A stretch of DNA of 36,400 nt, taken from assembly GCA_029863305.1 (NCBI GenBank), contig JAOTVR010000031.1:1-36400 (forward strand), read 5' to 3'. A model generated the notes under the pieces. It ran no database searches and was not told where the DNA came from. It worked only from the letters and a program-made list of their open reading frames with translations. The translations under genes were made by a program, and so were the position numbers. Every line of letters starts with the position of its first letter. Position 1 is the first letter of the stretch. Shown in pieces: positions 22,089 through 35,782 of this stretch. This DNA comes from Gammaproteobacteria bacterium (lineage in GTDB: Bacteria; Pseudomonadota; Gammaproteobacteria; Steroidobacterales; Woeseiaceae).

Positions 22089-22643
22089 TCAGACACCGAC
22101 CGTAGGTTCGACCGTGCCAAGACGCTCGACGACTGTCCGCACACGGACCCCGGCCCGTAGAGTTGCGTCAGATGTCGCAGCCCCTGCAAGCACTATCCAG
22201 CCCGGCTCGAGACCGAAGCCAGCCGAATCGGCAAACCGCGCCGCATGTAGCAGCAATTCCAGCAGATTACCCAGAATCGCCCCCGATGAGCCATCCCGGA
22301 CGGCCACACCTTCAGGTTCCAGACGCATCGAGAGAGCGGTGAGATCCATGTCCGGTTTGTGCCACGAACCGACAACATAGCCCGACGACGAGCAGTTGTC
22401 TGCGATTACGTCGGCAAGGTTAAACTCAAAGGACCTGAATCGTGAGTCGATCAGCTCCATCGCCATGCGGTCGGTAAGGTGGGCCCAGATCAGATCATCG
22501 ACACCCATTTGCAACATCTTGGCTGTGCTGGTGAAGCCCGGCTTCAGCCCGACAAGTGGCTCACCGCGCGCTATTCGTCGTTCGATCGACAGACGCTGAA
22601 TCTCGTAAGCATCCGCCAACGACAGGATCGCGCTTGCACTCAT
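22089..22643 (-). CDS. nbaG: Shortened 4-oxalocrotonate decarboxylase / hydratase-family protein
   Basis: This is a 184-residue protein of the MhpD/XylI (fumarylacetoacetase-like) group, whose members are usually about 260 residues. [49 protein letters not shown] and GAILGN are clear family blocks. HLTDRM runs straight into AMELIDSRF, so about 50-55 residues that normally carry the two metal-binding Glu (an E-x-E motif after HP) are missing in frame. About 25 N-terminal residues are missing too. The start overlaps nbaE by 4 bp (ATGA), so the N terminus cannot be extended. The cluster position predicts decarboxylation of 4-oxalocrotonate to 2-oxopent-4-enoate, but without the metal ligands activity is doubtful. 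Confidence 0.75.
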
Positions 22644-24097
22644 AGCTTGATACAGATGTTGGTCGGCTCGGAGTAGAAATTCAGAGAATGCACGCCGCCT
22701 TCACGACCGATTCCGGATAACTTCACGCCGCCGAAGGGCGTACGCAGATCGCGCAGGTACCAGGTATTGACCCAGACTATGCCTGCCTCGATCTGGCGCG
22801 CGACGCGATGCGCACGTGACAGGTTCGTGGTCCAGACGGCGCCGGCAAGACCATAGGCACTGTCGTTGGCCATCGCCACCGCTTGTTCTTCCGTTGTGAA
22901 GGGTGCGATGTGACAAACCGGCCCGAAAATCTCTTCACGAACGCAGCGGGCACTTTCCTCGAGACCAGTCAGGATCGTCGGCTGTACCCACGCACCCTGG
23001 TCACGAGCATCGCCAAACTCGGGAATGCCTCCGCCGGTTACGACAGTGGCGCCCTCTTCACGCGCCAACTCATAGTACGAAAGCACTTTGTCCCGATGGG
23101 CTGTCGATACCAGTGGACCGATTTCGGTTTGCTCGTCGTCCGGCCAGCCCATGCGCAGCGCCTCTGCACGGTCTTTGAGGCGCGCGACAAACTCGTCAAA
23201 GATCCTCTGGTGAACATAGACCCGTTCTGAGCAGAGGCAAACCTGACCGCAATTCGAAAACACCGAGCGCACAGTGCCGTCAACCGCCTGGTCCAGATTC
23301 GCGTCTTCGAAAATGATCGCCGCATTTTTGCCACCGAGCTCGAAGGACAATGCCTTAACGTTGCCGGCCGCGGCGCGCATGATCGCGCTACCGGTCGCGG
23401 ATTCTCCGGTAAACGTGATTGCATCAACGTCGGGATGTGTTGTCACGAATTCGCCAGCCGATCCAGGGCCGAAACCGTTCACGAGATTAAACACACCGGG
23501 TGGAATACCGACTTCGTGCATGACCTCTGCAAGCAGCGCAGCGGTCGCTGGCGTCTCTTCCGAGGGCTTCGCAATAATCGTATTGCCGGCCGCCATCGCG
23601 GGCGCCAGTTTCCATGTCAATAACAGGAACGGCAGATTCCATGGCGAGATCACGCCGACAACTCCCAATGGCTTGCGCACCGAGTAGTTCAACGCACCGC
23701 TGCCGTCAGGCGTGCCCATTTCGAAACATTCGGTCCCCGACGTGCTCACAAGATTGGCGAAAAAACGAAAATTAGCGGTGCCGCGCGGAATATCCAGCGT
23801 GCGCGCTTGCGCCAGCGGTTTGCCGGTATCCGCAATTTCGGCGGCAACGAACTCATCGAACCGCGCCTCGATACCGTCGGCGATTTGATTGAGCATCGCA
23901 CCGCGCTCGGCCGCCGACAGAGATCCCCACGGTCCACGCAGTGCCTCGCGGGCGGCCTGTACTGCCAGATCGACAGTTGACTTGTCGGCCTCGTGGACGA
24001 TACCCGCCAGCGATCCATCGACCGGGTTAATGTCGTCAAACCTGCTGGTCGACGCAACAAACCGGCCGGCAACGTAATTCTTGATTTCGTGCGGCAT
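22640..24097 (-). CDS. nbaE: 2-Aminomuconate-6-semialdehyde dehydrogenase
   Basis: This is a 485-residue aldehyde dehydrogenase. The start at 24097 (MPHEIKNYVAGRF) gives the normal length; the frame is open up to 24145 without homology. Catalytic elements are visible: PWNLPFLLLTWKLAPA, the general base Glu in LSFELGGKNAAI and the nucleophile Cys in FSNCGQVCLCSERVY. The C-terminal PFGGVKLSGIGREGG is typical of the hydroxymuconic/aminomuconic semialdehyde group. It oxidises the product of ACMSD to 2-aminomuconate with NAD+. It is the first gene of the minus-strand nba operon, divergent from kynU with only 54 bp between starts. Confidence 0.92.
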   Translation of the reverse strand: MPHEIKNYVAGRFVASTSRFDDINPVDGSLAGIVHEADKSTVDLAVQAAREALRGPWGSLSAAERGAMLNQIADGIEARFDEFVAAEIADTGKPLAQARTLDIPRGTANFRFFANLVSTSGTECFEMGTPDGSGALNYSVRKPLGVVGVISPWNLPFLLLTWKLAPAMAAGNTIIAKPSEETPATAALLAEVMHEVGIPPGVFNLVNGFGPGSAGEFVTTHPDVDAITFTGESATGSAIMRAAAGNVKALSFELGGKNAAIIFEDANLDQAVDGTVRSVFSNCGQVCLCSERVYVHQRIFDEFVARLKDRAEALRMGWPDDEQTEIGPLVSTAHRDKVLSYYELAREEGATVVTGGGIPEFGDARDQGAWVQPTILTGLEESARCVREEIFGPVCHIAPFTTEEQAVAMANDSAYGLAGAVWTTNLSRAHRVARQIEAGIVWVNTWYLRDLRTPFGGVKLSGIGREGGVHSLNFYSEPTNICIKL

Positions 24098-24151
24098 AAC
24101 GCGTCCTATTGTAAGGTAAAGCCCGCTAAATGGTGGTGTCGGCATAATAAT

Positions 24152-25393
24152 ATGGCAGTAAAGGCAAGAACCGACCTGGAAGCGCTCGATCGAACGGACC
24201 CTCTGAGCGGATTTCGCAACGAGTTCTTCCTGCCGGAGGGCGTCATCTACCTGAATGGCAATTCACTGGGTGCCATGCCGCTTGCCGCCGCCGAACGCGC
24301 CAAACGGGTTGTCGAGCACGAGTGGGCCAGGGGACTGATTGGCAGCATGAACTCGGCCGGCTGGTACACGTTGCCCACAACTCTTGGTCGCAAGATTGCA
24401 CCGATAGTCGGTGCCGGACCAAATGAGGTCGTGCTGACCGACGCCACCGGCATCAACTTGTACAAGGTTGTCGCGGCGGCGCTGAAAATGCAGCCGGACC
24501 GCCGCGTCGTTGTCATGGAAGGCAGCAACTTCCCGACCAATAATTACATGGTCCAGGGTCTGCTGGAACAACTCGACAAGGGCCACACGATCCGTTTTGC
24601 CGAGGCTGACGGCATGCTCGATGCGATCGATGAAGACGTCGCCGCGATCTGTATTACGCATGTGCACTACAAGACCGGAAATATTCTCGACATGGCTGCG
24701 ATCACGGCGAAGGCACACGCTGTCGGCGCGGCGGCCGTCTGGGACTTGTGCCACAGTGCCGGTGCGATGCCGGTCGATCTGAACGGTTGCAATGTCGACT
24801 TCGCGGTCGCCTGTACTTACAAGTACATCAATGGCGGACCAGGCGCACCGGCACTGCTGTATGTGGCCGAGCGACATCATGGCAAATACACACAGCCGCT
24901 GACCGGTTGGTACGGGCACGCCGCACCGTTCGAATTCGAGAGGGACTACCGGCCTGTCGGCGATATTCGGCAGATGTTAAGCGGTACCCAGCCCACGGCA
25001 AGCCTGTCGATTGCTGAAATCGGCATCGATATCATGTTGCGTGCTGATATTCATCAGATCCGCGAGAAGTCGATGCGCATGACGGACCTGTTCATCGAAC
25101 TTGTCGAACAGCGCTGCGCTCAGTTCGGCGTCGAGCTGGTTAGCCCGCGTGATGCCAGACAGCGGGGTAGCCAGGTCTCTTTTCTTAACGATGATGGCTA
25201 TCCGATCGTGCGCGCGCTGCACGATCGCGGCGTCATCTGCGATTACCGGGCGCCCGGCAATATGCGCTTCGGCTTTGCACCACTGTATTTACGCTATGCA
25301 GACGTTTGGGATGCGGTAGATCATCTTCACGATATTCTTGCGAGTGAGGCATGGAAAGAAGACCGCTACCAGGTACGAGCGGCGGTTACCTAA
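24152..25393 (+). CDS. kynU: Kynureninase
   Basis: This is a 413-residue PLP enzyme of the usual length. The start at 24152 gives MAVKARTDLEALDRTDPLS; the frame is open further upstream but overlaps nbaE antisense and shows no homology. Signatures are VIYLNGNSLGAMP, NEVVLTDATGINLYKV, FPTNNYMVQGL, WDLCHSAGAMPVDL (PLP-binding Asp) and the Schiff-base Lys in CTYKYINGGPGAPA. It cleaves 3-hydroxykynurenine (or kynurenine) to 3-hydroxyanthranilate (or anthranilate) plus alanine. It is divergent from nbaE and followed by the transporter gene after 12 bp. Confidence 0.95.
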   Translation: MAVKARTDLEALDRTDPLSGFRNEFFLPEGVIYLNGNSLGAMPLAAAERAKRVVEHEWARGLIGSMNSAGWYTLPTTLGRKIAPIVGAGPNEVVLTDATGINLYKVVAAALKMQPDRRVVVMEGSNFPTNNYMVQGLLEQLDKGHTIRFAEADGMLDAIDEDVAAICITHVHYKTGNILDMAAITAKAHAVGAAAVWDLCHSAGAMPVDLNGCNVDFAVACTYKYINGGPGAPALLYVAERHHGKYTQPLTGWYGHAAPFEFERDYRPVGDIRQMLSGTQPTASLSIAEIGIDIMLRADIHQIREKSMRMTDLFIELVEQRCAQFGVELVSPRDARQRGSQVSFLNDDGYPIVRALHDRGVICDYRAPGNMRFGFAPLYLRYADVWDAVDHLHDILASEAWKEDRYQVRAAVT

Positions 25394-25405
25394 GGAGCAC
25401 TGGCA

Positions 25406-26788
25406 ATGACGACATCTGAGAGGCTGCACTGGTCCTCGCGCTTCACATTCCTGATGGCCGCCGTGGGCTGCGCTGTCGGGCTCGGTAATATCTGGCGGTT
25501 TCCTTATACGGCAGGCGTCAGCGGCGGTGGCGCATTTGTCCTTATATATCTTGGTGCTATCGTGCTGCTCGCATTGCCGGTACTGATGGCTGAGTTGATG
25601 ATCGGCCGGCGCGGCGCAGCCGGTCCGCCCGCCGCGATTGCAGCCGTCGCCCGGGAATCCGGACGGTCCACGAACTGGCGCTGGATGGGCGTCCTTCTCG
25701 GCGGCCTTGGCGCACTACTCGCGCTGTCGTTCTATGCTGTCGTAGGTGGCTGGACCCTGGCCTACGCATTCAAGATGGGTTCCGGACAACTGCAACAAGT
25801 CACCGCAGATGAAGCGACGCTGGTCTTCGACGTATTGAACAGTAGCCCGGGCAATCTGCTGACCTGGTTTACGGTGTTCATTGGCGCAACCGTATTCATT
25901 TCCGCGGGCGGCCTGCACTCCGGTATAGAGCGCGCCGTCAAAATCATGATGCCGGCGCTGTTCGTCATGCTGGTCGCAATGGTCGTGTATTCGGCCACTG
26001 TCGGCGACATAGGCCGCACACTGAGTTTCCTGTTCACACCGGACTTTAGCAAAATCAATGCCAAGGTCGTCATGGCAGCTTTCGGCCAGGCATTCTTCAC
26101 GGTCAGTGTCGGCATCACGAACATGATGGCCTACGGTGCTTACCTGCAAAGAAGTACCGGGTTGCCACACGCATCCGTGATTATTGTCGGTGCCGATACC
26201 TTGGTCGCCTTGTTAGCCGGACTTGCCATCTTCCCGATCATCTTCATGTACGGACTCGAGCCGGGCGCCGGGCCGGGCCTGGTCTTCATGACCCTGCCGT
26301 TCGCTTTTGGCCAGATTCCCGGTGGCCTCGTATTCGGCACTCTCTTTTTCGTACTGCTGTTTTTTGCGGCATTGACTTCATCGATCGCAATGCTCGAGGC
26401 GCCCGTGGCGTGGCTGCGTGACGCTACCTCACTGTCGCGGCGTGCCGCTGCATTGGTGGCCGGCTCAATCAGTTTTGCGCTCGGCATTCTCGCCGCACTG
26501 TCATTCAATGTGCTTTCCGATACGCACCCCCTCGGATCCATCGCATTATTTGAGGGCAAGACTTTTTTCGACTTGTTCGACTTCCTGGTCACCAACATCA
26601 TGATGCCTCTCGGCGGCATACTCATCGCGGTATTTGCCGGTTGGTTCATCAAGAAACAGTTCAGCCGCGACGAGATGTTCGAGGGCAAAGACACGATCGC
26701 CTATCGCTTGTGGCTGGTTCTGGTGCGCTACCTTGCGCCCGCTATACTCGCATTCGTGTTTTACGACATGACTATCGGCTGGTCGTAG
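25406..26788 (+). CDS. Sodium-dependent amino-acid transporter (NSS/SLC6 family)
   Basis: This is a 460-residue inner-membrane protein with about 11-12 hydrophobic segments. The family hallmark in TM1 is VGLGNIWRFPYTAGVSGGGAF, with the unwound region that binds Na+ and substrate. TM6 and TM8 regions also look typical (FFTVSVGITNMMAYGAYL and LTSSIAMLEAPVAWL). AAGGAG-like sequence lies before the ATG, 12 bp after kynU, so it is in the same operon. The most likely substrate is tryptophan or kynurenine, inferred from the operon only. Its 3' end overlaps the convergent FetB-like gene by 17 bp. Confidence 0.92.
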   Translation: MTTSERLHWSSRFTFLMAAVGCAVGLGNIWRFPYTAGVSGGGAFVLIYLGAIVLLALPVLMAELMIGRRGAAGPPAAIAAVARESGRSTNWRWMGVLLGGLGALLALSFYAVVGGWTLAYAFKMGSGQLQQVTADEATLVFDVLNSSPGNLLTWFTVFIGATVFISAGGLHSGIERAVKIMMPALFVMLVAMVVYSATVGDIGRTLSFLFTPDFSKINAKVVMAAFGQAFFTVSVGITNMMAYGAYLQRSTGLPHASVIIVGADTLVALLAGLAIFPIIFMYGLEPGAGPGLVFMTLPFAFGQIPGGLVFGTLFFVLLFFAALTSSIAMLEAPVAWLRDATSLSRRAAALVAGSISFALGILAALSFNVLSDTHPLGSIALFEGKTFFDLFDFLVTNIMMPLGGILIAVFAGWFIKKQFSRDEMFEGKDTIAYRLWLVLVRYLAPAILAFVFYDMTIGWS

Positions 26789-27604: not shown

Positions 27605-28021
27605 CTAATTGAAGAACTTCGACGCCAACCCGGCCAGTCCGCTTTTTCCGCCAACAGAGTCCAGCAGGCTGCCGCCGCGACTGCTTTTGTTGATGAGTTC
27701 GGGCAGGATTTCGGACAAGCTGTTGCTGGCCTCTTCCTGGCCGATGCCGAGTTTTTTGGCGAAGGCTTCAATCCTGTCACCACCAATCGCTTCCTGCACC
27801 TGCGACGGTGATATCGCTGCATTGGCCCCGTCACCAAGCCAGGACTGCGCTTTTTTAGCCAGGTCACCGCCCGCACCAGTGAATTTTCCGACGATGTCGC
27901 CCAGGTCAAATTCCTTGCTCTCGCCAACAAGGTCATTCAGAGCAGATGCGGCCGTATCCTGGTCGCCTGCAGCACCGATCTTGTTCATCAAAAACTCCGT
28001 TGCAAAACTCTTCAAGTCCAC
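27605..28021 (-). CDS. yidB: YidB-like protein (DUF937)
   Basis: This is a 138-residue soluble protein. I take the GTG at 28021 as start because GGAGA lies 6 bp upstream and the residues that follow are family-like; the frame is open to 28138 but those codons run through the promoter region. Features are ISPSQVQEAIGGDRIEAFA, LGIGQEEASNSLSEILPELIN and a Gly-rich, repeated DGV-like end (GSLLDSVGGKSGLAGLASKFF), as in YidB proteins. The function is unknown; homologues are abundant small proteins. Upstream lies the dyad at 28121-28138, also found before the DUF4332 gene. Confidence 0.82.
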   Translation of the reverse strand: MDLKSFATEFLMNKIGAAGDQDTAASALNDLVGESKEFDLGDIVGKFTGAGGDLAKKAQSWLGDGANAAISPSQVQEAIGGDRIEAFAKKLGIGQEEASNSLSEILPELINKSSRGGSLLDSVGGKSGLAGLASKFFN

Positions 28022-28120
28022 TGTCTTCTCCAAAATGTGATGGACAAATAGAAGACATCGATGATCGTAATCATCATTGCCGCGGACTTTATATACCGAA
28101 TCAGCGCGGTCGGACGCCGC

Positions 28121-28138
28121 TGTAACAAATGTTGACAA
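28121..28138. promoter_or_regulatory. Dyad operator upstream of the YidB-like gene
   Basis: The 18 bases TGTAACAaaTGTTGACAA form an imperfect inverted repeat. The site lies 100-117 bp before the yidB start. On the minus strand a TATATA box (28095-28090) lies 25 bp downstream of it, which would place the dyad centre near -45, a position common for activators. The same sequence with another 2-bp centre occurs at 35783-35800. Confidence 0.5.
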
Positions 28139-28156: not shown

Positions 28157-29710
28157 TCAATGCGTGAGCCGTTTAATTTCCACCAGTAATTCCTGCATTG
28201 GTGCGGGCTTGCGAAAGAAGCGTGTGAATGCGCGTCTTTCTTCCTCGTTCAGCCTCGACGCCGTCAATGCCACAATCGGTTTTTCATAGCCCTGCTGACG
28301 CAACAGTTTTGCCGCCCCGACTCCGCCGATGCCGGGCACATTGCAGTCCATTAGTACCAGATCCGGATCGTACTTGATGGTTTTCGCAATGGCGTCGGAA
28401 CTGTCCGACGTTGCGATCAGGCCGTAACCCGAGCGATGCAGATAATGCTCGACCAGCGCGATCATGTCGTCGTCGTCATCGCAGATAAGGATGCTCAACG
28501 GCCGGGACGCCAGCGCATCTTGATCAGGAACCGGAAGAACCGGGGCTTCGGCGGCAACGGGGTCTGCCTGCACGTTAACGGGAATATAGATGCTCACTGT
28601 GCATCCCTCATCCGGCTGCGAGTCGAGCGAAACTTCACCTCCCATTAGTTGCACGAGCCGAAGCGTAATCGTTAGCCCCAGCCCGGCGCCGGTTTCGCTA
28701 CGTTTGCTACCACGCTCGAACGCTTTAAATACCTTTTCCTGGTCTTCCGAGCTGATGCCGGGTCCCGTATCGCTGACTGTGACGACGAGCCTGTCACTGC
28801 TGTATGTCACCTTGAGTCGCACACCTCCTTCCTGCGTAAACTTGACCGCGTTGCCCAGGAGATTTATCAGAATCTGACGAAATCGAACTTCGTCGGCAAA
28901 AATGACCTTCGGCACATCCGAGTCGACGAAAGTCGCAAATGACAGGCCCTTTTCCGCGGCCATGGGCGCCATCATTCGTGCCAAGTCCTCGAAAAGGTTG
29001 TGACAGTCGAATTGCTCTTCAACCAGCTCCAGCCGGCCTGCCGACAGGCTGGCATCGTCAAGCAGGGCCTCAACTAATGATGTCAGGTGACGCGCTGATC
29101 GTTCTATCGTCTCAACGCTTTTCTGAATATCGTTACGGCTTGCATCCTGTTCCTGAGCAAGCTGGGCGTAATTGATGATTGATGCAAGTGGCGTGCGAAA
29201 TTCGTGCGACATCATCGCAATGAAACGGCTCTTGTTTGCGCTGCTGCGCTCGGCCTCCTGGCGATGATGGTCCAGTTCCGACCGGATTTCTATAAGCTCG
29301 CTGATAAGCTCGCGCTGTCGGCCAATCAGTCTGTTCTGGCGCGCATGCATGAGCCGAAGTTCGTTTGTCTTTTGCTGCTTCGCCTGAGTTGGGTCATGCT
29401 CGTCACTCGCATCGATCAGAACGACATAGCTTTGACGGCCATCCGGTATCAAATGCACATGCGCAACACTGTGTCGGGACAAACGCACGAAACGCAGGGC
29501 CTGGGGTTCGCCGATAACACAGCCAACCAGAAATACCGCGGCATCACGCATATCGTGACCGATTGGAATATCGTCAAGTCCCCAGCGCTGCGCATCGCCC
29601 CATATCTGGACGAGCGCGTAATTCTCGTCAATGAGAAAACAGAACAGTCGCTCGCTCGAAAAATACTCGTCTTGCAGATTGTGTACGACGCAGGCTGGCA
29701 GCTGCATCAT
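28157..29710 (-). CDS. Cytoplasmic hybrid sensor histidine kinase with C-terminal receiver
   Basis: This is a 517-residue protein without membrane segments. Residues 1-105 look like a PAS-like input domain and 108-160 a coiled-coil linker. The kinase core has the H-box SHEFRTPLASI (His169), N-box LINLLGNAVKF (about 281-291), G1 DTGPGIS (314-320), F-box VFKAFERG and G2 GAGLGLTI (341-348). The receiver (about 405-517) has the acidic pocket DDDDD, phosphoacceptor Asp455 in LVLMDCNVPG, Thr in ALTAS and Lys501 in FRKPAP. It should pass phosphate through its receiver to an Hpt protein; one is encoded 3.7 kb upstream in the same block. The start overlaps the GTPase stop as ATGA. Confidence 0.92.
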   Translation of the reverse strand: MMQLPACVVHNLQDEYFSSERLFCFLIDENYALVQIWGDAQRWGLDDIPIGHDMRDAAVFLVGCVIGEPQALRFVRLSRHSVAHVHLIPDGRQSYVVLIDASDEHDPTQAKQQKTNELRLMHARQNRLIGRQRELISELIEIRSELDHHRQEAERSSANKSRFIAMMSHEFRTPLASIINYAQLAQEQDASRNDIQKSVETIERSARHLTSLVEALLDDASLSAGRLELVEEQFDCHNLFEDLARMMAPMAAEKGLSFATFVDSDVPKVIFADEVRFRQILINLLGNAVKFTQEGGVRLKVTYSSDRLVVTVSDTGPGISSEDQEKVFKAFERGSKRSETGAGLGLTITLRLVQLMGGEVSLDSQPDEGCTVSIYIPVNVQADPVAAEAPVLPVPDQDALASRPLSILICDDDDDMIALVEHYLHRSGYGLIATSDSSDAIAKTIKYDPDLVLMDCNVPGIGGVGAAKLLRQQGYEKPIVALTASRLNEEERRAFTRFFRKPAPMQELLVEIKRLTH

Positions 29711-30231
29711 TCGGCCCGCATATCGTTATCGAGAATCCGTCGAGCCAGTTTCTCAAAGGCTCGCTCCACCGCATCTCCGGTTTTTGCGCTGGTTTTGAAA
29801 ACCGCCCCGAAGTGAGCGTGAAGCGCTTTCACACTACTTTCATTCACGTCCCAATCGCCAGCAAGATCGCTTTTGTTGAGCAACACGACAGATGGGGCGC
29901 TGCCAAATCTGTCGGTGACTTGTTCCTCGAGGCTCATTGCCGACCGCAAGGTACTCGTGCGCGTGCCATCGATGACATATATGTAACCGCTCGCGCCACG
30001 CAGATAGGCGAACTCGGTATGTTCGAATCGGTCTGAACCTGCGATATCCCAGATCACTAATTTATGCGAGACACCGAGGTCCGGAACTTCAATTAGCTTG
30101 GTATCAATTTTGACACCGATCGTCGTCAGGTAGCTTTCCGAAAAATGATTATTGACGAAGCGCTCTGCAATACTTGTCTTGCCGACGGCGAAATCGCCGA
30201 CTATGCAGACTTTGCTGGTGAATAACGTCAT
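29707..30231 (-). CDS. Ras/Rab-like bacterial small GTPase
   Basis: This is a 174-residue single-domain GTPase. All five G motifs are seen: G1 GDFAVGKTS (12-20), G2 Thr37 in YLTTIGVKI, G3 WDIAGSDRF (61-69), G4 NKSD (119-122) and G5 TSAKTG (147-152). Ras Gln61 corresponds to Ser66 here, so intrinsic hydrolysis may be slow and need a partner. There is no lipidation signal at the C terminus. It belongs to the bacterial Rab-like/Rup-type branch. The start overlaps the stop of the Roadblock/OmpA gene and its stop overlaps the kinase start, both as ATGA. The neighbouring Roadblock-like domain is the obvious candidate regulator. Confidence 0.9.
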   Translation of the reverse strand: MTLFTSKVCIVGDFAVGKTSIAERFVNNHFSESYLTTIGVKIDTKLIEVPDLGVSHKLVIWDIAGSDRFEHTEFAYLRGASGYIYVIDGTRTSTLRSAMSLEEQVTDRFGSAPSVVLLNKSDLAGDWDVNESSVKALHAHFGAVFKTSAKTGDAVERAFEKLARRILDNDMRAE

Positions 30232-31928
30232 GACGGGTCGGTCAGGGAACCAAGCTGTAAGTCGACCTGTACGTAGCGCCTGCTGACGTCGCTCTGCGGT
30301 GGGGACTGCGGGTCGCCGGCGGGTACTTGCATTATGTCCGAAACCTCGACGCCGTGTGAGCGCAGCACGGCCGCGGCGGCCGTGGCCCGGCGCCGGGCCA
30401 GCGCCGCGTTCTGCGCCGGCTCACCCGTCAGGTCGGTTGAGCCGTGAAGCAGCACGGAAACAGAGTATCCGACTGCCGCCGCATCGGCGCGGAGCGCGCG
30501 CAAAACTGCCGCGTGCTTAACGAGCATATCTTCGTTTCCCGGAGAAAATATCGCGCCATTCTCAAAATGGAATCTCGCCCCGGAAACCTGCGCGACACGT
30601 GCTTCAAAGCGTAGCCGGTCACTCGTCGCCAAACCACTCACATCCAGTGCGCTGACTCCCGCCAGTAAGCCGAATCGACTCTGCAACTGTTGCCGCCAGC
30701 TCCATGGGGCGTCTCCGCTCACATGCAGCGTTGCGGTAGAAACCCTGAACAAGACAGATTCGGGCCGGCCAAAAATCTCGGCTGCACGCGCCTCGATAAT
30801 CTCGGGTTGCAATGACTGGAATGGCTGCATCGCAGCGGTAACTCGAGTCGCTGGAATGTCAACCGATTCGGCGATGTCGCCGACCGGGATCGCCAGTGGA
30901 TCTTTGAGTCCTCTTACAAAGAAATGATTGCCGTCACGGCTGATCTCGGTTACATGGATTCCCGGTGTACTTGCCAGGGCAGTGTTCAGTCGATCAAGTT
31001 GCTGCAGATGTGACCAACTGCGGTAGCCCAGGAATCCGGCAACGGCAAGCAATAGAATTAGCGCGATAATCAAGAGTCGGTTATTGCTCCGATCCTTTTT
31101 AGTCTCGCGGCGCGCTTCGAATCGCAGGCAGCGTGTCAGCTCGACATCGACGTCCGGTACAGTCGACGTATCGCCCTTGTACTCCCGAATCGCCTCACCG
31201 TAACGGAAATGTATGCGCTCAAGGATCGCGCTGAGGTCGGCTCGCAGGCTCTTGGGCGGCACGCCCCGAATAACGCACACCAGTAACGCATGTGGACCAT
31301 GGACCGCCCACAAGGTGAACTCGCCCATATCGGCCGACTCCAGCCTGCCGCTGCGGTCCGGCGAAAACGACTCTTTTACGAAATCCTGTATCGCCGTGAA
31401 CATCGCCGACACAGCATCGCTATCCTTGATCTTCGAAGCTTCATGGTGCGCATGACCCACCAGCAGTCCACTGTCACGGCTTATCAGATAGGCCTGCTCA
31501 ATCCGGTACTGCATGGTTCTTTGCAGCACATACTCTCCAAACGGAACGCCAGCACGCGAAGCCTGCCAGCGCCATTTCAACCCGGTCGGGCTGATGCTGT
31601 GTTCGACCGCCTCATTGATCTGTTGCGAAAAGTTCCGCAGCGCATGCATGATGGATTTGCGAATCGCCGGACCCATAACAGGATACAACGCATTTCCAAA
31701 TGTTTCCGGATCCTCGTGCATCGCACGCTGCACACACTTGCCGACTGGAGACGTCAACGCCTCGACAAGCTCGTCGTCTTTGGCGTGACTTTGATGGATC
31801 GCTTCCGGAAGGATATCGGCGACATCTGCCGTGCGTATTTCGCGACGCTCGACTCGTCTTGAAATCGAATCCAACGCCTCTTTCTCGGCGCCAAACAGGA
31901 GCTGTTTAAGCTGCTCGAGATCGTTCAT
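30228..31928 (-). CDS. Membrane protein: Roadblock-like cytoplasmic part, BON-like and OmpA-like periplasmic parts
   Basis: This is a 566-residue protein. Residues 1-45 carry the motif LKQLLFGAE and a helical segment ending DILPEAI. Residues about 75-135 are conserved-looking (LYPVMGPAIRKSI, SISPTGLKWRW). Residues 143-245 read like a Roadblock/LC7 fold (AYLISRDSGLLVGH, MFTAIQDFVKESF, ALLVCVIRG). One transmembrane helix lies at about 285-301. Periplasmic residues 305-435 look BON-like, and 450-560 form an OmpA-type peptidoglycan-binding domain (HGSTDLTGEPAQNAALARRRA). It would link the cell wall to a cytoplasmic GTPase regulator. The Roadblock call is by fold pattern only. It overlaps the GTPase gene and lies 24 bp after the coiled-coil gene. 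Confidence 0.82.
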   Translation of the reverse strand: MNDLEQLKQLLFGAEKEALDSISRRVERREIRTADVADILPEAIHQSHAKDDELVEALTSPVGKCVQRAMHEDPETFGNALYPVMGPAIRKSIMHALRNFSQQINEAVEHSISPTGLKWRWQASRAGVPFGEYVLQRTMQYRIEQAYLISRDSGLLVGHAHHEASKIKDSDAVSAMFTAIQDFVKESFSPDRSGRLESADMGEFTLWAVHGPHALLVCVIRGVPPKSLRADLSAILERIHFRYGEAIREYKGDTSTVPDVDVELTRCLRFEARRETKKDRSNNRLLIIALILLLAVAGFLGYRSWSHLQQLDRLNTALASTPGIHVTEISRDGNHFFVRGLKDPLAIPVGDIAESVDIPATRVTAAMQPFQSLQPEIIEARAAEIFGRPESVLFRVSTATLHVSGDAPWSWRQQLQSRFGLLAGVSALDVSGLATSDRLRFEARVAQVSGARFHFENGAIFSPGNEDMLVKHAAVLRALRADAAAVGYSVSVLLHGSTDLTGEPAQNAALARRRATAAAAVLRSHGVEVSDIMQVPAGDPQSPPQSDVSRRYVQVDLQLGSLTDPS

Positions 31929-31952
31929 CGATACTCTGCCACAAGTGTTGAA

Positions 31953-32513
31953 TCAGGCGTCAGGCAACTTGAAGTCTTTCTTCAGCCGCAAGGCTACTTC
32001 AGTCAGTAAGGCCGCCATATCATCGCGCGCAAGTTTCGCTTCAGCAAGATCACGTGTTTCATTGAAGATCGACTTGCTTAGCTGTTCATGCGTGTCCTGT
32101 ATCATTCCCGACAGCTCGTCGTGTTGTTCCTGCATTGAGCTGCGCAGGTCGCGAGATTCTCCTTCGATCTGCTCCTCCAGCTCGGCGTACCAGGCCTCAG
32201 CCTGTTGCCCGAGGCTCTTTAGTTCTTTCGAACCTTTCCTGCCATCATCGGCCCGCGCTTTACGTTCGTTTTTCACCTGCTCGTTAAGCTTGTCGATTTC
32301 ACGCCTGGTGAAAGTATTTAGCCGCTCAATACGCTTATCGATGTTAATCGACATTTGCTCGATGTTCTTGTTCAGGCGATTCTCAAGCTGAGCGAAACGC
32401 TGCTCGTAATCACGCATCTGGCCACCGAACAAAATCTCCCGGATCTTATCGACGTTTTCTTCGGTGCTGTCTGCCGACAACCCCGCCTGACTTTTGCTTT
32501 GTTTTTTTGCCAT
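31953..32513 (-). CDS. Coiled-coil cytoplasmic protein of the GTPase-phosphorelay cassette
   Basis: This is a 186-residue hydrophilic protein, starting at the ATG that overlaps the response-regulator stop by one base (TAATG). Residues 21-30 hold the motif VDKIREILFG, similar to the start of the OmpA-type protein. Residues about 33-175 are almost wholly heptad-like charged helix (FAQLENRLNKNIEQMSINID, RREIDKLNEQVKNERKARA, AWYAELEEQIEGESRDL), ending LRLKKDFKLPDA. It has no signal peptide, membrane segment or enzyme motif. A scaffold or adaptor between the GTPase, its membrane partner and the kinase is plausible from position and shape, but I do not recognise a characterised family. Confidence 0.78.
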   Translation of the reverse strand: MAKKQSKSQAGLSADSTEENVDKIREILFGGQMRDYEQRFAQLENRLNKNIEQMSINIDKRIERLNTFTRREIDKLNEQVKNERKARADDGRKGSKELKSLGQQAEAWYAELEEQIEGESRDLRSSMQEQHDELSGMIQDTHEQLSKSIFNETRDLAEAKLARDDMAALLTEVALRLKKDFKLPDA

Positions 32514-33205
32514 TATGTGTTGATCCTTTCCAATCGATATCCGTGCTGATAGATCGCCGATAATTTCCAACCGTTTTCCTCGTTCAAGCTGAGCTTCTTT
32601 CGTAGCCGACTGACATGCGTGTCAACGGTCCTTGTCGAAACGGATTTGTTTTCGATGCCCCATACTGCCTCGAGAATATGATTGCGGGATATCATCTTCC
32701 CTGCATTGCGAAAGAAGAACAGGGCCAGATCGAATTCCCTATTGGTTAAACTGATGTCTTCTTCCCCCAACCGCACTGACGTTCTCGCCATATCTATCGA
32801 GTACGGCGTGGCATCTATTGCTTCATTTTCCGGTTTACCTCCATCTGCACGGCGACGTATCGCATTTACCCGAGCGACGAGCTCGGCGCGACGAATCGGC
32901 TTCACGAGGTAATCGTCCGCGCCTGCTTCCAGGCCGCGTACCACGCTTCGCTCTTCGTCTTTGGCCGTGGCTATCACGACCGGCGTGTAATCGCCAATCT
33001 CCCGGCGCAACTTCCCCAGCACCTCTATTCCACTGAGATCAGGCACTATCCAGTCGAGCACATAAAGATCGAAGCTGTCTCTTCGCACCGCCCGCAGGAA
33101 GCTGGCACCGCTCTGGTGGCTGTCTATGGTGTGTCCCGCATGCGTCAGCCACAGGCTGATGATCTCCGCCTGGTCAACGTCATCCTCGAGAATTGCGATT
33201 CGCAA
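32513..33205 (-). CDS. OmpR/PhoB-family response regulator
   Basis: This is a 230-residue protein. The start codon is TTG at 33205, with GGAG 6 bp upstream. The receiver has the acidic pair in ILEDDVDQAE, phosphoacceptor Asp51 in LYVLDWIVPDLSG, Thr in VIATAKDEE and Lys102 in YLVKPIRR. The C-terminal winged helix is of OmpR type (SLTNREFDLALFFFRNAGKM, then HILEAVWG, and VDTHVSRLRKKL as recognition helix). It is the likely terminal output of the phosphorelay whose kinase, Hpt and GTPase are encoded with it. Targets are unknown; the dyad motifs elsewhere in the window are one candidate. Confidence 0.92.
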   Translation of the reverse strand: MRIAILEDDVDQAEIISLWLTHAGHTIDSHQSGASFLRAVRRDSFDLYVLDWIVPDLSGIEVLGKLRREIGDYTPVVIATAKDEERSVVRGLEAGADDYLVKPIRRAELVARVNAIRRRADGGKPENEAIDATPYSIDMARTSVRLGEEDISLTNREFDLALFFFRNAGKMISRNHILEAVWGIENKSVSTRTVDTHVSRLRKKLSLNEENGWKLSAIYQHGYRLERINT

Positions 33206-33294
33206 TGGTGCTCCTGTCGTGGCCCCACCGGTTCCTGTTACCCGGTCTTATCGCGGTGCTTCTTTTGATTATTTCCCGCGCTGCTTTGAACCTC

Positions 33295-33300
33295 ATTATA
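33295..33300 (-). promoter_or_regulatory. Candidate -10 box for the phosphorelay operon
   Basis: On the minus strand TATAAT (33300-33295) lies in an AT-rich stretch of the 164-bp gap between the Hpt gene and the regulator start, about 90 bp before the TTG. The -35 position (about 33323-33318, TGTTTA) is poor, so an activator may be needed. If real, the regulator-to-kinase block can be transcribed apart from hpt. Confidence 0.35.
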
Positions 33301-33369
33301 TAGAGTGAAAACTGCGATAAACATCCGAATTATGAGGGATTATTTCAAGTCGGCGCGCGTTACGGCGTA

Positions 33370-33675
33370 TCAGCGAATCTTTACCGTTCGAACAAATGTC
33401 GCCAGATCGCCCAGTTGGGCCCGAATTTTCTCGGCATCTCCGGATTCGGCCGCTCTCTCCAAACCCTTGCCCAGTCGTGAAATTTCGTCCAGACCATAGG
33501 CGGAACCGGACCCGTACAGATTATGGCCGGTCAGGTAAATCGTCTCGAAGTCCGCTTCGGCCAGCGCCAGTTCGAGTACCTCCAGGTCATTGACCCGACG
33601 CTCGAGGTATCGGGCCATGAGCTTGCGCGCGAACGGATCGGCGACGTCGATCGTTTTAGCCATCTTGTTGCTCAT
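33370..33675 (-). CDS. Histidine phosphotransfer (Hpt) protein
   Basis: This is a 101-residue all-helical protein. The phosphorylation motif is HNLYGSGSAYGL with His51; the usual Lys after H-x-L is replaced by Tyr, but the Gly-Ser pattern that packs the next helix is kept. The following helix (DEISRLGKGLERAAESGD) also matches Hpt domains. It is the natural carrier between the receiver of the hybrid kinase and the OmpR-type regulator encoded just downstream. It is separated from the regulator by 164 bp with a possible promoter. An alternative start is the ATG four codons later. Confidence 0.87.
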   Translation of the reverse strand: MSNKMAKTIDVADPFARKLMARYLERRVNDLEVLELALAEADFETIYLTGHNLYGSGSAYGLDEISRLGKGLERAAESGDAEKIRAQLGDLATFVRTVKIR

Positions 33676-33803: not shown

Positions 33804-35267
33804 TTATTCCGCGTCTCTGAGCCGTGCCAACCAGTGTTCCATTTGCCTGCCAGCTGCTTCGCGGCCACCGAGTCCGAAGGACAGCGCAAAAGCGACCGCA
33901 ATCGAACCGAGCACCAGCCCGAATGCGAGATTGACAATGTCATCGGCTATGCCCATCGCTCGCAAACCCATTGCAAGGACGAGCCCGAGAATTGCCGCAC
34001 GCATAATCCCGGCCAGCATGGCTGCCGATGCTCCCGCGACCTTGATAACAGCCGAGTACGCCACGCCGGCAATCCAGAATCCGGCAGCGAGAATTGCACC
34101 ACCCAGCAATACCTGCCCGGCGAACTCGATCAAGGTCGATACGATTCCCGACACTTGATCGAAACCCAGTTGCTTGGATGCCTCTACCGTCGCAAACAGC
34201 ATGATAAAAAGGCTTACCACCGTGCCCACGAAGCTCGACAGATAGAATCCCTCGGCAGGACCTGACGCGAGGCCGAGTTTTGCGGGTAGCGCGTTGGCAC
34301 CCAGGCCATCCAGCATTCGGGAGACGAGCCCCGATATGAACCGCGCCAATACGAACGCAATACTCAGAATGATGACGGCCGCGAATATGTCAGGAATGGC
34401 CGACATAAACGCGCCGAGCATCTGCGTCGCCGGGGCGGAGATCGCTTCTATCTGCAGCGTATTCAGGGCGGCAACCAGTGCCGGCACGAACACAAAGATG
34501 AAGACGAGAAGTCCGCCAAGCTGTGACAGGCTGACGTTCCCGGACAGGCCTGCCTTCTCGCCGACGCGGTCGAATCCGACTACCTGCAGCAACTTCTGCA
34601 CCAGGTCGCGCAATATTCGCGCCACAAACCAGCCAACCAGGCCGATGACGGCAGCAGCGAGAATGTTGGGCAGCATGGCGAGGATCTTGTCCACCATGCC
34701 CTGGACGGGCATGAGTAGTCCATCGAGTTTGAGCGTGCCGAGAATGGCCGGCAAAAACATCAGGATGATCAACCAGTACAGAACATCGCCAATGCTGCCG
34801 CTGACCGGCTTCATCTCTGCCGCTGCACTGATCTTCTCGTCGATATTGGTTTTCGACAGCGCATTTGTGGTTAGCGAGCGGGCGAGGCTGGCAAGCACCC
34901 AGGCGACCAGCGCCAGCACGGCGCCGGCGATCAGGCTGGGTCCGAATTCGAACACCTTGGTAACCAGCGCCTGTAGTGGCTCCGATACGACTTCGAGATC
35001 CAGCACATTAAAGAACGCGATTAGCACCAGGAACATCACAATCCAGAAGACACCGCTCGCGCCCCACGCTTCTGCATTTACCTCACTGTCTGTGCTGCTT
35101 GCGATACGCTCGTTCAGATTGGCCACGTCCAACAGCCGCCGCGTGGCAGCACGTAAAACAACCGCGACCAACCAGCCGACGACAAGAATGCCGACGGCAG
35201 CCAGAAGGCTGGGCAGGGTACCGCCCAGGGTTGCCTGAAGTGAGTCCAGGGTCGATTGAATATCCAT
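33804..35267 (-). CDS. TM-helix-repeat membrane protein (MscS-related, CmpX-like)
   Basis: This is a 487-residue inner-membrane protein with roughly 10-12 hydrophobic segments. It repeats a unit in which a helix such as LPSLLAAVGILVVGWLVA, LPNILAAAVIGLVGWFVAR or IPDIFAAVIILSIAFVLAR is followed by a short amphipathic linker. This is the conserved TM helix of mechanosensitive-channel relatives, present about five times. It ends with FALSFGLGGREAAGRQ, typical of CmpX-like proteins. I see no MscS beta-domain, so it is not a complete classical MscS. It follows the DUF4332 gene after 31 bp and probably shares its promoter. A role in membrane-tension or stress response is likely from the family. Confidence 0.85.
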   Translation of the reverse strand: MDIQSTLDSLQATLGGTLPSLLAAVGILVVGWLVAVVLRAATRRLLDVANLNERIASSTDSEVNAEAWGASGVFWIVMFLVLIAFFNVLDLEVVSEPLQALVTKVFEFGPSLIAGAVLALVAWVLASLARSLTTNALSKTNIDEKISAAAEMKPVSGSIGDVLYWLIILMFLPAILGTLKLDGLLMPVQGMVDKILAMLPNILAAAVIGLVGWFVARILRDLVQKLLQVVGFDRVGEKAGLSGNVSLSQLGGLLVFIFVFVPALVAALNTLQIEAISAPATQMLGAFMSAIPDIFAAVIILSIAFVLARFISGLVSRMLDGLGANALPAKLGLASGPAEGFYLSSFVGTVVSLFIMLFATVEASKQLGFDQVSGIVSTLIEFAGQVLLGGAILAAGFWIAGVAYSAVIKVAGASAAMLAGIMRAAILGLVLAMGLRAMGIADDIVNLAFGLVLGSIAVAFALSFGLGGREAAGRQMEHWLARLRDAE

Positions 35268-35298: not shown

Positions 35299-35706
35299 CT
35301 AGTAACTGACCTTCGCCGGCAGCTTCTTCGCTTGCGCAATCCAGTTACCCACCACGTTGCTTGACGGCGGTCTCCGCACCAGATTCTTCGCTTCGTTGAC
35401 CTCCGCCATTTTCGCTGCGAGGTTTTCGGCATTCCGATGCCGCAACTCCTTGACCGTATCGACACCAACACACTCGAGCAGCTCTGCATACTGACTCGCA
35501 ACGCCATTAATGCGAAACAGGTCAGCCATGTTGACGCACTTCAGAATGCGGGCCTCACTGATGCCGGTGCTGTCCGCCAGCGCTTTTCGCGAATTCTTGT
35601 CCGCGCCGGATTCCAGCAAATCCTCAACGCTGCGTACGCCAGCCGCTTTAAGCGCGGCGGCCAGCTTAGGGCCGATGCCCTCGATTTTTTGAATACTCTT
35701 AGCCAT
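35299..35706 (-). CDS. DUF4332 helix-hairpin-helix protein
   Basis: This is a 135-residue soluble protein. The start at 35706 gives MAKSIQKIEGIGPKLAAAL, a clear helix-hairpin-helix (IEGIGPKLAAALKAAGV). A second such unit follows (DLFRINGVASQYAELLECVG, then VDTVKEL), as in DUF4332. An open frame continues upstream to 35751 without family resemblance. HhH pairs usually bind DNA or mediate protein contacts; the role of this family is not known. It is the first gene of a two-gene unit with the CmpX-like protein, and has the dyad 35783-35800 at 77-94 bp upstream. Confidence 0.82.
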   Translation of the reverse strand: MAKSIQKIEGIGPKLAAALKAAGVRSVEDLLESGADKNSRKALADSTGISEARILKCVNMADLFRINGVASQYAELLECVGVDTVKELRHRNAENLAAKMAEVNEAKNLVRRPPSSNVVGNWIAQAKKLPAKVSY

Positions 35707-35782
35707 GAAAGATTCTCCTGTGTTCTGGTGATGTGAATTGCTGCCGCGCATACTATGTCAGCCGGCAATCGAATCGCCGAGT

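Follow-up and report, generated by a model that had tools for sequence, protein, structure and literature searches.

A conserved Rab-like GTPase cassette whose predicted folds suggest a link between the cell wall and varied responses

The window analysed here is the 36,400-nucleotide stretch at positions 1 to 36,400 of contig JAOTVR010000031.1, from a Gammaproteobacteria bacterium of the Woeseiaceae (assembly GCA_029863305.1). Its minus strand carries six genes, for an Hpt protein, an OmpR-type response regulator, a coiled-coil protein, a 566-residue protein with a transmembrane (TM) helix and an OmpA domain, a Ras-like GTPase and a hybrid histidine kinase, and the locus raises the question of how a protein that may reach the cell wall, a small GTPase and a phosphorelay could work together. 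The open reading frame (ORF) table and Pfam bore out the six genes, with their positions and junctions, as the first-pass annotation had described them; the junctions, from the kinase to the Hpt gene, are -4, -4, +24, -1 and 164 bp. The GTPase, the kinase, the regulator and Hpt are named by Pfam, the OmpA domain lies slightly below the Pfam cut-off, and no Pfam family exceeded its cut-off in the coiled-coil protein. The first-pass interpretation was borne out in part. The explanation favoured here, with a probability of roughly 55%, is that a Rab-like GTPase, itself under the control of a longin protein anchored to the wall, gates a PAS-coupled output, in this case the phosphorelay.

A Group 1 Rup cassette and its conservation

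Judged by its features, the four-gene core belongs to a known but uncharacterised type, the Group 1 Rup cassette. As described in 2014 by Wuichet and Sogaard-Andersen (PMC4316618), the Group 1 Rup neighbourhood comprises the Rup GTPase, a coiled coil, an unnamed domain often followed by TM and OmpA segments, and an output protein (kinase or diguanylate cyclase/phosphodiesterase) whose N-terminal region holds an invariant Gln; the authors proposed that the Gln is supplied in trans, and also proposed conservon-like signalling. The same features were found in the window: a GTPase of less than 240 residues with a G3 motif lacking Gln, no coupling to MglB/Robl_LC7, the expected neighbours and an output Gln. 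The GTPase has 174 residues (PF00071, 107.8 bits), and its closest solved relatives, among the best 60 of 750 rows from a PDB rich in Rabs, are eukaryotic Rabs, Rab14 first with 82.8 bits, a Thorarchaeota Rab reaching 77.6. The G3 motif reads WDIAGS; in the GTPases of the fetched loci Gln was present at the G3 position in 1 of 90, and Glu in 63.

Conservation close to home was followed in 40 genomes, the source genome included. The OmpA-type protein was matched in 15, or in 13 once two with a match to the OmpA domain only (G002, G038) were dropped, and an independent GTPase search recovered those same 13 genomes. In the 12 order-level relatives bearing the cassette, Hpt, regulator, coiled coil, longin/OmpA protein and GTPase occur in 12/12 and the kinase in 11/12, the contig of the twelfth ending within the GTPase; the Hpt gene lies about 1.4 kb away from the regulator in four (L138-L141), and its match is weak in another (L142, E 4.5e-5).

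Farther afield, a scan of named genomes with a 16-row alignment picked out 431 stretches. Relatives are encoded in 401 of them, and the analysis was continued with the best 80, to which all counts out of 80 refer. Their titles include Acidobacteria, Deltaproteobacteria/Desulfobacterales, genera of Cyanobacteria, Planctomycetota, Verrucomicrobia, Gemmatimonadota, Bacteroidetes, Latescibacterota and others, as well as Ghiorsea, Mariprofundaceae and Variovorax (14 loci). By our own gene calls, the coiled coil adjoins in 70 of the 71 loci with upstream room, the exception (L053) having its match within an overlapping long ORF. The GTPase was found in 77/80 loci, directly downstream in 70 and on the opposite strand in 7. 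By the same calls, a protein with the adaptor domain described below stands directly behind the GTPase in 68/80 loci from several phyla. The other 12 comprise two short records (L021, L095), two loci in which no GTPase was found (L078, L099), four with a GTPase but no adaptor (L047, L050, L058, L070) and four (L043, L075, L076, L081) with no detectable adaptor, in which the coiled coil is preceded upstream by a kinase-REC-Hpt gene. The last four belong to Acidobacteria or Pyrinomonadaceae and possess the coiled coil, the longin/OmpA gene and the GTPase. The patterns used also matched 272 stretches of viral contigs, but no relative was encoded in any of these.

A converse approach started from the GTPase. 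In the source genome PF00071 was strongly matched once, three further matches (21.9-34.7 bits) falling within open frames of 455-842 codons, and the adaptor model also matched once. When loci were chosen via Pfam Ras in 369 genomes from the class, the best 29 foreign ones separated into 22 with Rup-like scores (187-250 bits) and 7 with 48-96 bits, on a scoring model built from loci that had been chosen through the longin protein; the adaptor was present in 22/22 of the former and the longin/OmpA gene within about 1.5 kb in 20/22, and neither occurred in the 7 low-scoring loci.

The OmpA-type protein and its predicted longin-like domain

For the domain left unnamed in 2014, the predicted fold is closer to a longin than to a canonical Roadblock. 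In the AlphaFold2 (AF2) model residues 142-268 adopt the order β1-β2-α1-β3-β4-β5-α2-α3, which is the longin topology, with an additional helix (130-138) ahead of β1; longins are described as having a second C-terminal helix and lacking the N-terminal one (PMC10933270). The best structural matches, obtained with VIA and Foldseek, were the longins of TRAPP, Vamp7, Sec22b and Fuzzy-Inturned. A Roadblock-like domain had been proposed earlier for this region, with structure prediction of residues 143-245 as its check; the model shows the longin/Roadblock superfold, with a canonical Roadblock the less likely form. Pfam Robl_LC7 gave zero matches in the 566-residue protein and zero in its own genome, about 90% complete, and hhalign comparison with 19 Robl_LC7 domains was weak (in the control, against the adaptor alignment, P was 0.56); for these reasons the claim was lowered to the superfold, with longin preferred. 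Fuz_longin_1 was weakly matched in 2 of 53 alignment members (best E 0.008), a tally that leaves the 566-residue protein itself unmatched and includes one unrelated protein (L099:11150-11551) later removed from the alignment. A PDB sequence-profile search with the longin alignment returned weak unrelated rows and no PDB longin.

The domain, on the cytoplasmic side of the membrane, would hold the GTPase and control which nucleotide it carries. Its most likely role, suggested by the fold, is that of a platform of the guanine nucleotide exchange factor (GEF) type as in TRAPP. It could instead be a GTPase-activating protein (GAP) of the Roadblock type or a passive scaffold, like MglB, in which case GTP would load spontaneously and the wall-bound protein would switch the GTPase off. 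MglB itself is a longin/Roadblock superfold protein able to act as both GEF and GAP. This alternative is rather unlikely, since longin chains score higher and the second C-terminal helix is covered in the VIA comparison, the weak Pfam matches include Fuz_longin_1, and a conserved Gln of the adaptor is a candidate for the one missing from the GTPase.

The remainder of the 566-residue protein points toward the envelope. Residues 284-302 form the one strongly hydrophobic segment found, and the Asp499 and Arg514 of the OmpA domain are almost invariant in the alignment; such OmpA residues bind peptidoglycan. The protein would be anchored in the inner membrane and, via the OmpA domain, to peptidoglycan, and it is the OmpA domain that suggests the cell wall as stimulus. 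The intervening BON-like region is an AF2 block with a predicted local distance difference test (pLDDT) score of 92-97; it drew one Foldseek row, OsmY (E 1.8e-4, root-mean-square deviation 14.4), a protein with BON domains, and the region's borders are not set by any family model. In more distant relatives (L009-L013) about 60 extra residues lie between the TM helix and the OmpA domain, as if a further BON-like repeat were present.

Residues 2-21 of the OmpA-type protein match residues 19-38 of the coiled coil (hhalign P 1e-5, probability 82%), while the best P was 0.0041 for coiled-coil windows without the motif and 0.011 for other windows of the OmpA-type protein. The shared 20-residue motif may be a common docking element, through which the coiled coil would help to assemble the complex.

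A PAS-like adaptor, its outputs and the direction of signalling

The kinase appears to begin with a PAS-like input domain (residues 1-105, as modelled). The first-pass annotation held that the kinase has no extracellular sensor of its own and that the GTPase could be its input; an input domain is predicted, and the GTPase may gate it. A PDB sequence-profile search with the adaptor alignment gave weak unrelated rows only. Of 94 aligned adaptors, 92 have a Gln at the place of kinase Gln113; this residue fits the invariant Gln described in 2014 (PMC4316618) and would be the one in the logo given there. Because of this conservation and the missing G3 Gln, and following the 2014 proposal, a GAP role may be assigned to Gln113: the loaded GTPase would bind the adaptor, which would provide the absent Gln, so that effector and GAP would be one. 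A signalling helix would then switch the kinase, and phosphate could pass from His169 to Asp455, to Hpt His51 and to regulator Asp51, the four candidate sites, located by motif, being all present.

Across 79 adaptor proteins the domain is fused to cyclase (11), SpoIIE (17), sigma-54 (5), HD (4) and EAL (1) modules, and kinases are likewise joined to it. Because such varied effector enzymes sit on a constant adaptor, the direction is most simply read as from GTPase to adaptor to output. PAS domains often bind ligands, and a reversed signal could be envisaged in which the PAS-kinase responds to a cytoplasmic ligand and governs the GTPase, with the OmpA-type protein as its target, localising or remodelling the wall, much as the kinases of actinobacterial conservons have been put upstream of their GTPase; this is improbable in view of the fused effector enzymes and of the complete relay of Hpt and regulator in 12/12 relatives, conservons having no regulator. 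That the GTPase/longin pair and the phosphorelay are mere neighbours, co-regulated for a shared envelope role with no biochemical link, is very improbable, as the GTPase and adaptor stay together across several phyla whatever the output, as one Gln is kept in nearly all adaptors, and as in the 7 split loci, where one gene pair is inverted relative to the rest, the GTPase remains with the adaptor in 6/7 and the longin and coiled-coil genes stay paired in 7/7. In seven loci (L030, L036, L042, L060, L064, L065, L088) two adaptor proteins follow in succession behind one GTPase, the first in L030 being of the cyclase type; a single GTPase may therefore serve two outputs.

Compared with the Group 1 Rup account, in which the domain is unnamed and the outputs are usually a kinase or diguanylate cyclase/phosphodiesterase, what is new here is the longin and PAS assignments, the wider outputs (cyclase, SpoIIE, sigma-54, HD), the motif shared by two of the proteins, the split gene order and, in this lineage, an Hpt and an OmpR-type regulator that are conserved. 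In the open-licence PMC papers searched, experimental characterisation of Rup did not go beyond the transcription of one Nostoc member (PMC4316618); no longin assignment for Rup and no phrase "bacterial longin" or "prokaryotic longin" occurred, and none joined longin, OmpA and GTPase (PMC8743551 has Longin as an author name only). The Rab exchange factors TRAPP, Mon1-Ccz1 and Fuzzy-Inturned likewise use longin-fold subunits to serve Rab GTPases, and such factors are among the top structural matches, but they are eukaryotic multi-subunit trafficking complexes with no peptidoglycan anchor and no kinase, and exchange activity in the present case is predicted from the model. MglA/MglB and the actinobacterial conservons (Cvn, Mfp) also pair a small GTPase with a Roadblock/longin-superfold partner, and conservons have a histidine kinase in the locus; they differ in the MglB-type Pfam Roadblock and the MglA-family GTPase, have no OmpA-type partner in the descriptions available and, for conservons, lack the response regulator of this cassette (PMC4316618). 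The relay itself follows the usual HK-REC to Hpt to REC scheme, differing in a PAS-like adaptor input tied to a GTPase cassette.

Membrane traffic in eukaryotes depends centrally on longin domains and Rab-like GTPases. It is tempting to speculate that the gene cassette is a bacterial Rab/longin module of several phyla, in which a TRAPP-like, wall-tethered longin serves as exchange platform for the GTPase, which docks on a PAS adaptor holding its missing Gln and open to fusion with many outputs, and that this module and the eukaryotic Rab/longin-GEF pair may have a common origin; this wider proposal is tentative. The work consulted on the prokaryotic roots of longins and Rab-like GTPases (PMC10933270, PMC4917890) centres on Asgard archaea, though a table in PMC4917890 records longin/Roadblock, counted as one, for bacteria too. 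A bacterial cassette with a peptidoglycan anchor and a swappable output would offer a simple laboratory system for a longin-driven Rab-type switch, and would define a new route by which the condition of the wall could be relayed to transcription, to cyclic nucleotides or to phosphatases.

Features of the locus and its surroundings

Table 1. Positions of the cassette features in the window
Feature	Coordinates	Strand	Basis
Hybrid histidine kinase: PAS-like adaptor, signalling helix, HisKA (His169), HATPase_c, receiver (Asp455)	28157..29710	-	Pfam, residue motifs, AF2 of residues 1-161
Predicted PAS-like adaptor domain, kinase residues 1-105	29396..29710	-	AF2 of kinase residues 1-161
Kinase Gln113 codon, start of signalling helix	29372..29374	-	AF2, adaptor alignment
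Rab-like small GTPase, Group 1 Rup type, G3 WDIAGS without catalytic Gln	29707..30231	-	Pfam, PDB relatives, G3 tally
566-residue protein: N-terminal helices, longin-like domain, TM helix, BON-like region, OmpA domain	30228..31928	-	
Longin-like domain, residues 141-273	31110..31508	-	AF2, VIA, Foldseek
Single TM helix, residues 284-302	31023..31079	-	Mean hydropathy 2.4 over 19 residues
BON-like periplasmic region, residues ~320-435	30624..30971	-	AF2 block, one Foldseek row
OmpA-type peptidoglycan-binding domain, residues ~450-560, with Asp499 and Arg514	30249..30581	-	Pfam, VIA, Foldseek
Coiled-coil protein kept with the cassette	31953..32513	-	Hidden Markov model matches in 75/80 loci
20-residue motif of the coiled coil	32400..32459	-	hhalign
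Matching motif, N terminus of OmpA-type protein, residues 2-21	31866..31925	-	hhalign
OmpR-type response regulator (Asp51)	32513..33205	-	Pfam, residue motif
Hpt phosphotransfer protein (His51)	33370..33675	-	Pfam, relatives, residue motif

Two flanking genes, one for a mechanosensitive channel (33804-35267) and one YidB-like (27605-28138), were considered as parts of the cassette and dropped, since neither stands beside it in any of the 12 relatives; matches to both lie elsewhere in the stretch in L135, and a YidB match only in L137. The channel gene stands between the cassette and a DUF4332 gene (35299-35751), and it looks inserted, because a DUF4332 match immediately precedes Hpt in 7/12 relatives. 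Elsewhere in the window, at 22640-26788, inspection by eye suggested genes for an aldehyde dehydrogenase, a sodium-coupled transporter and a kynureninase-like protein, which may form a cluster for tryptophan breakdown.
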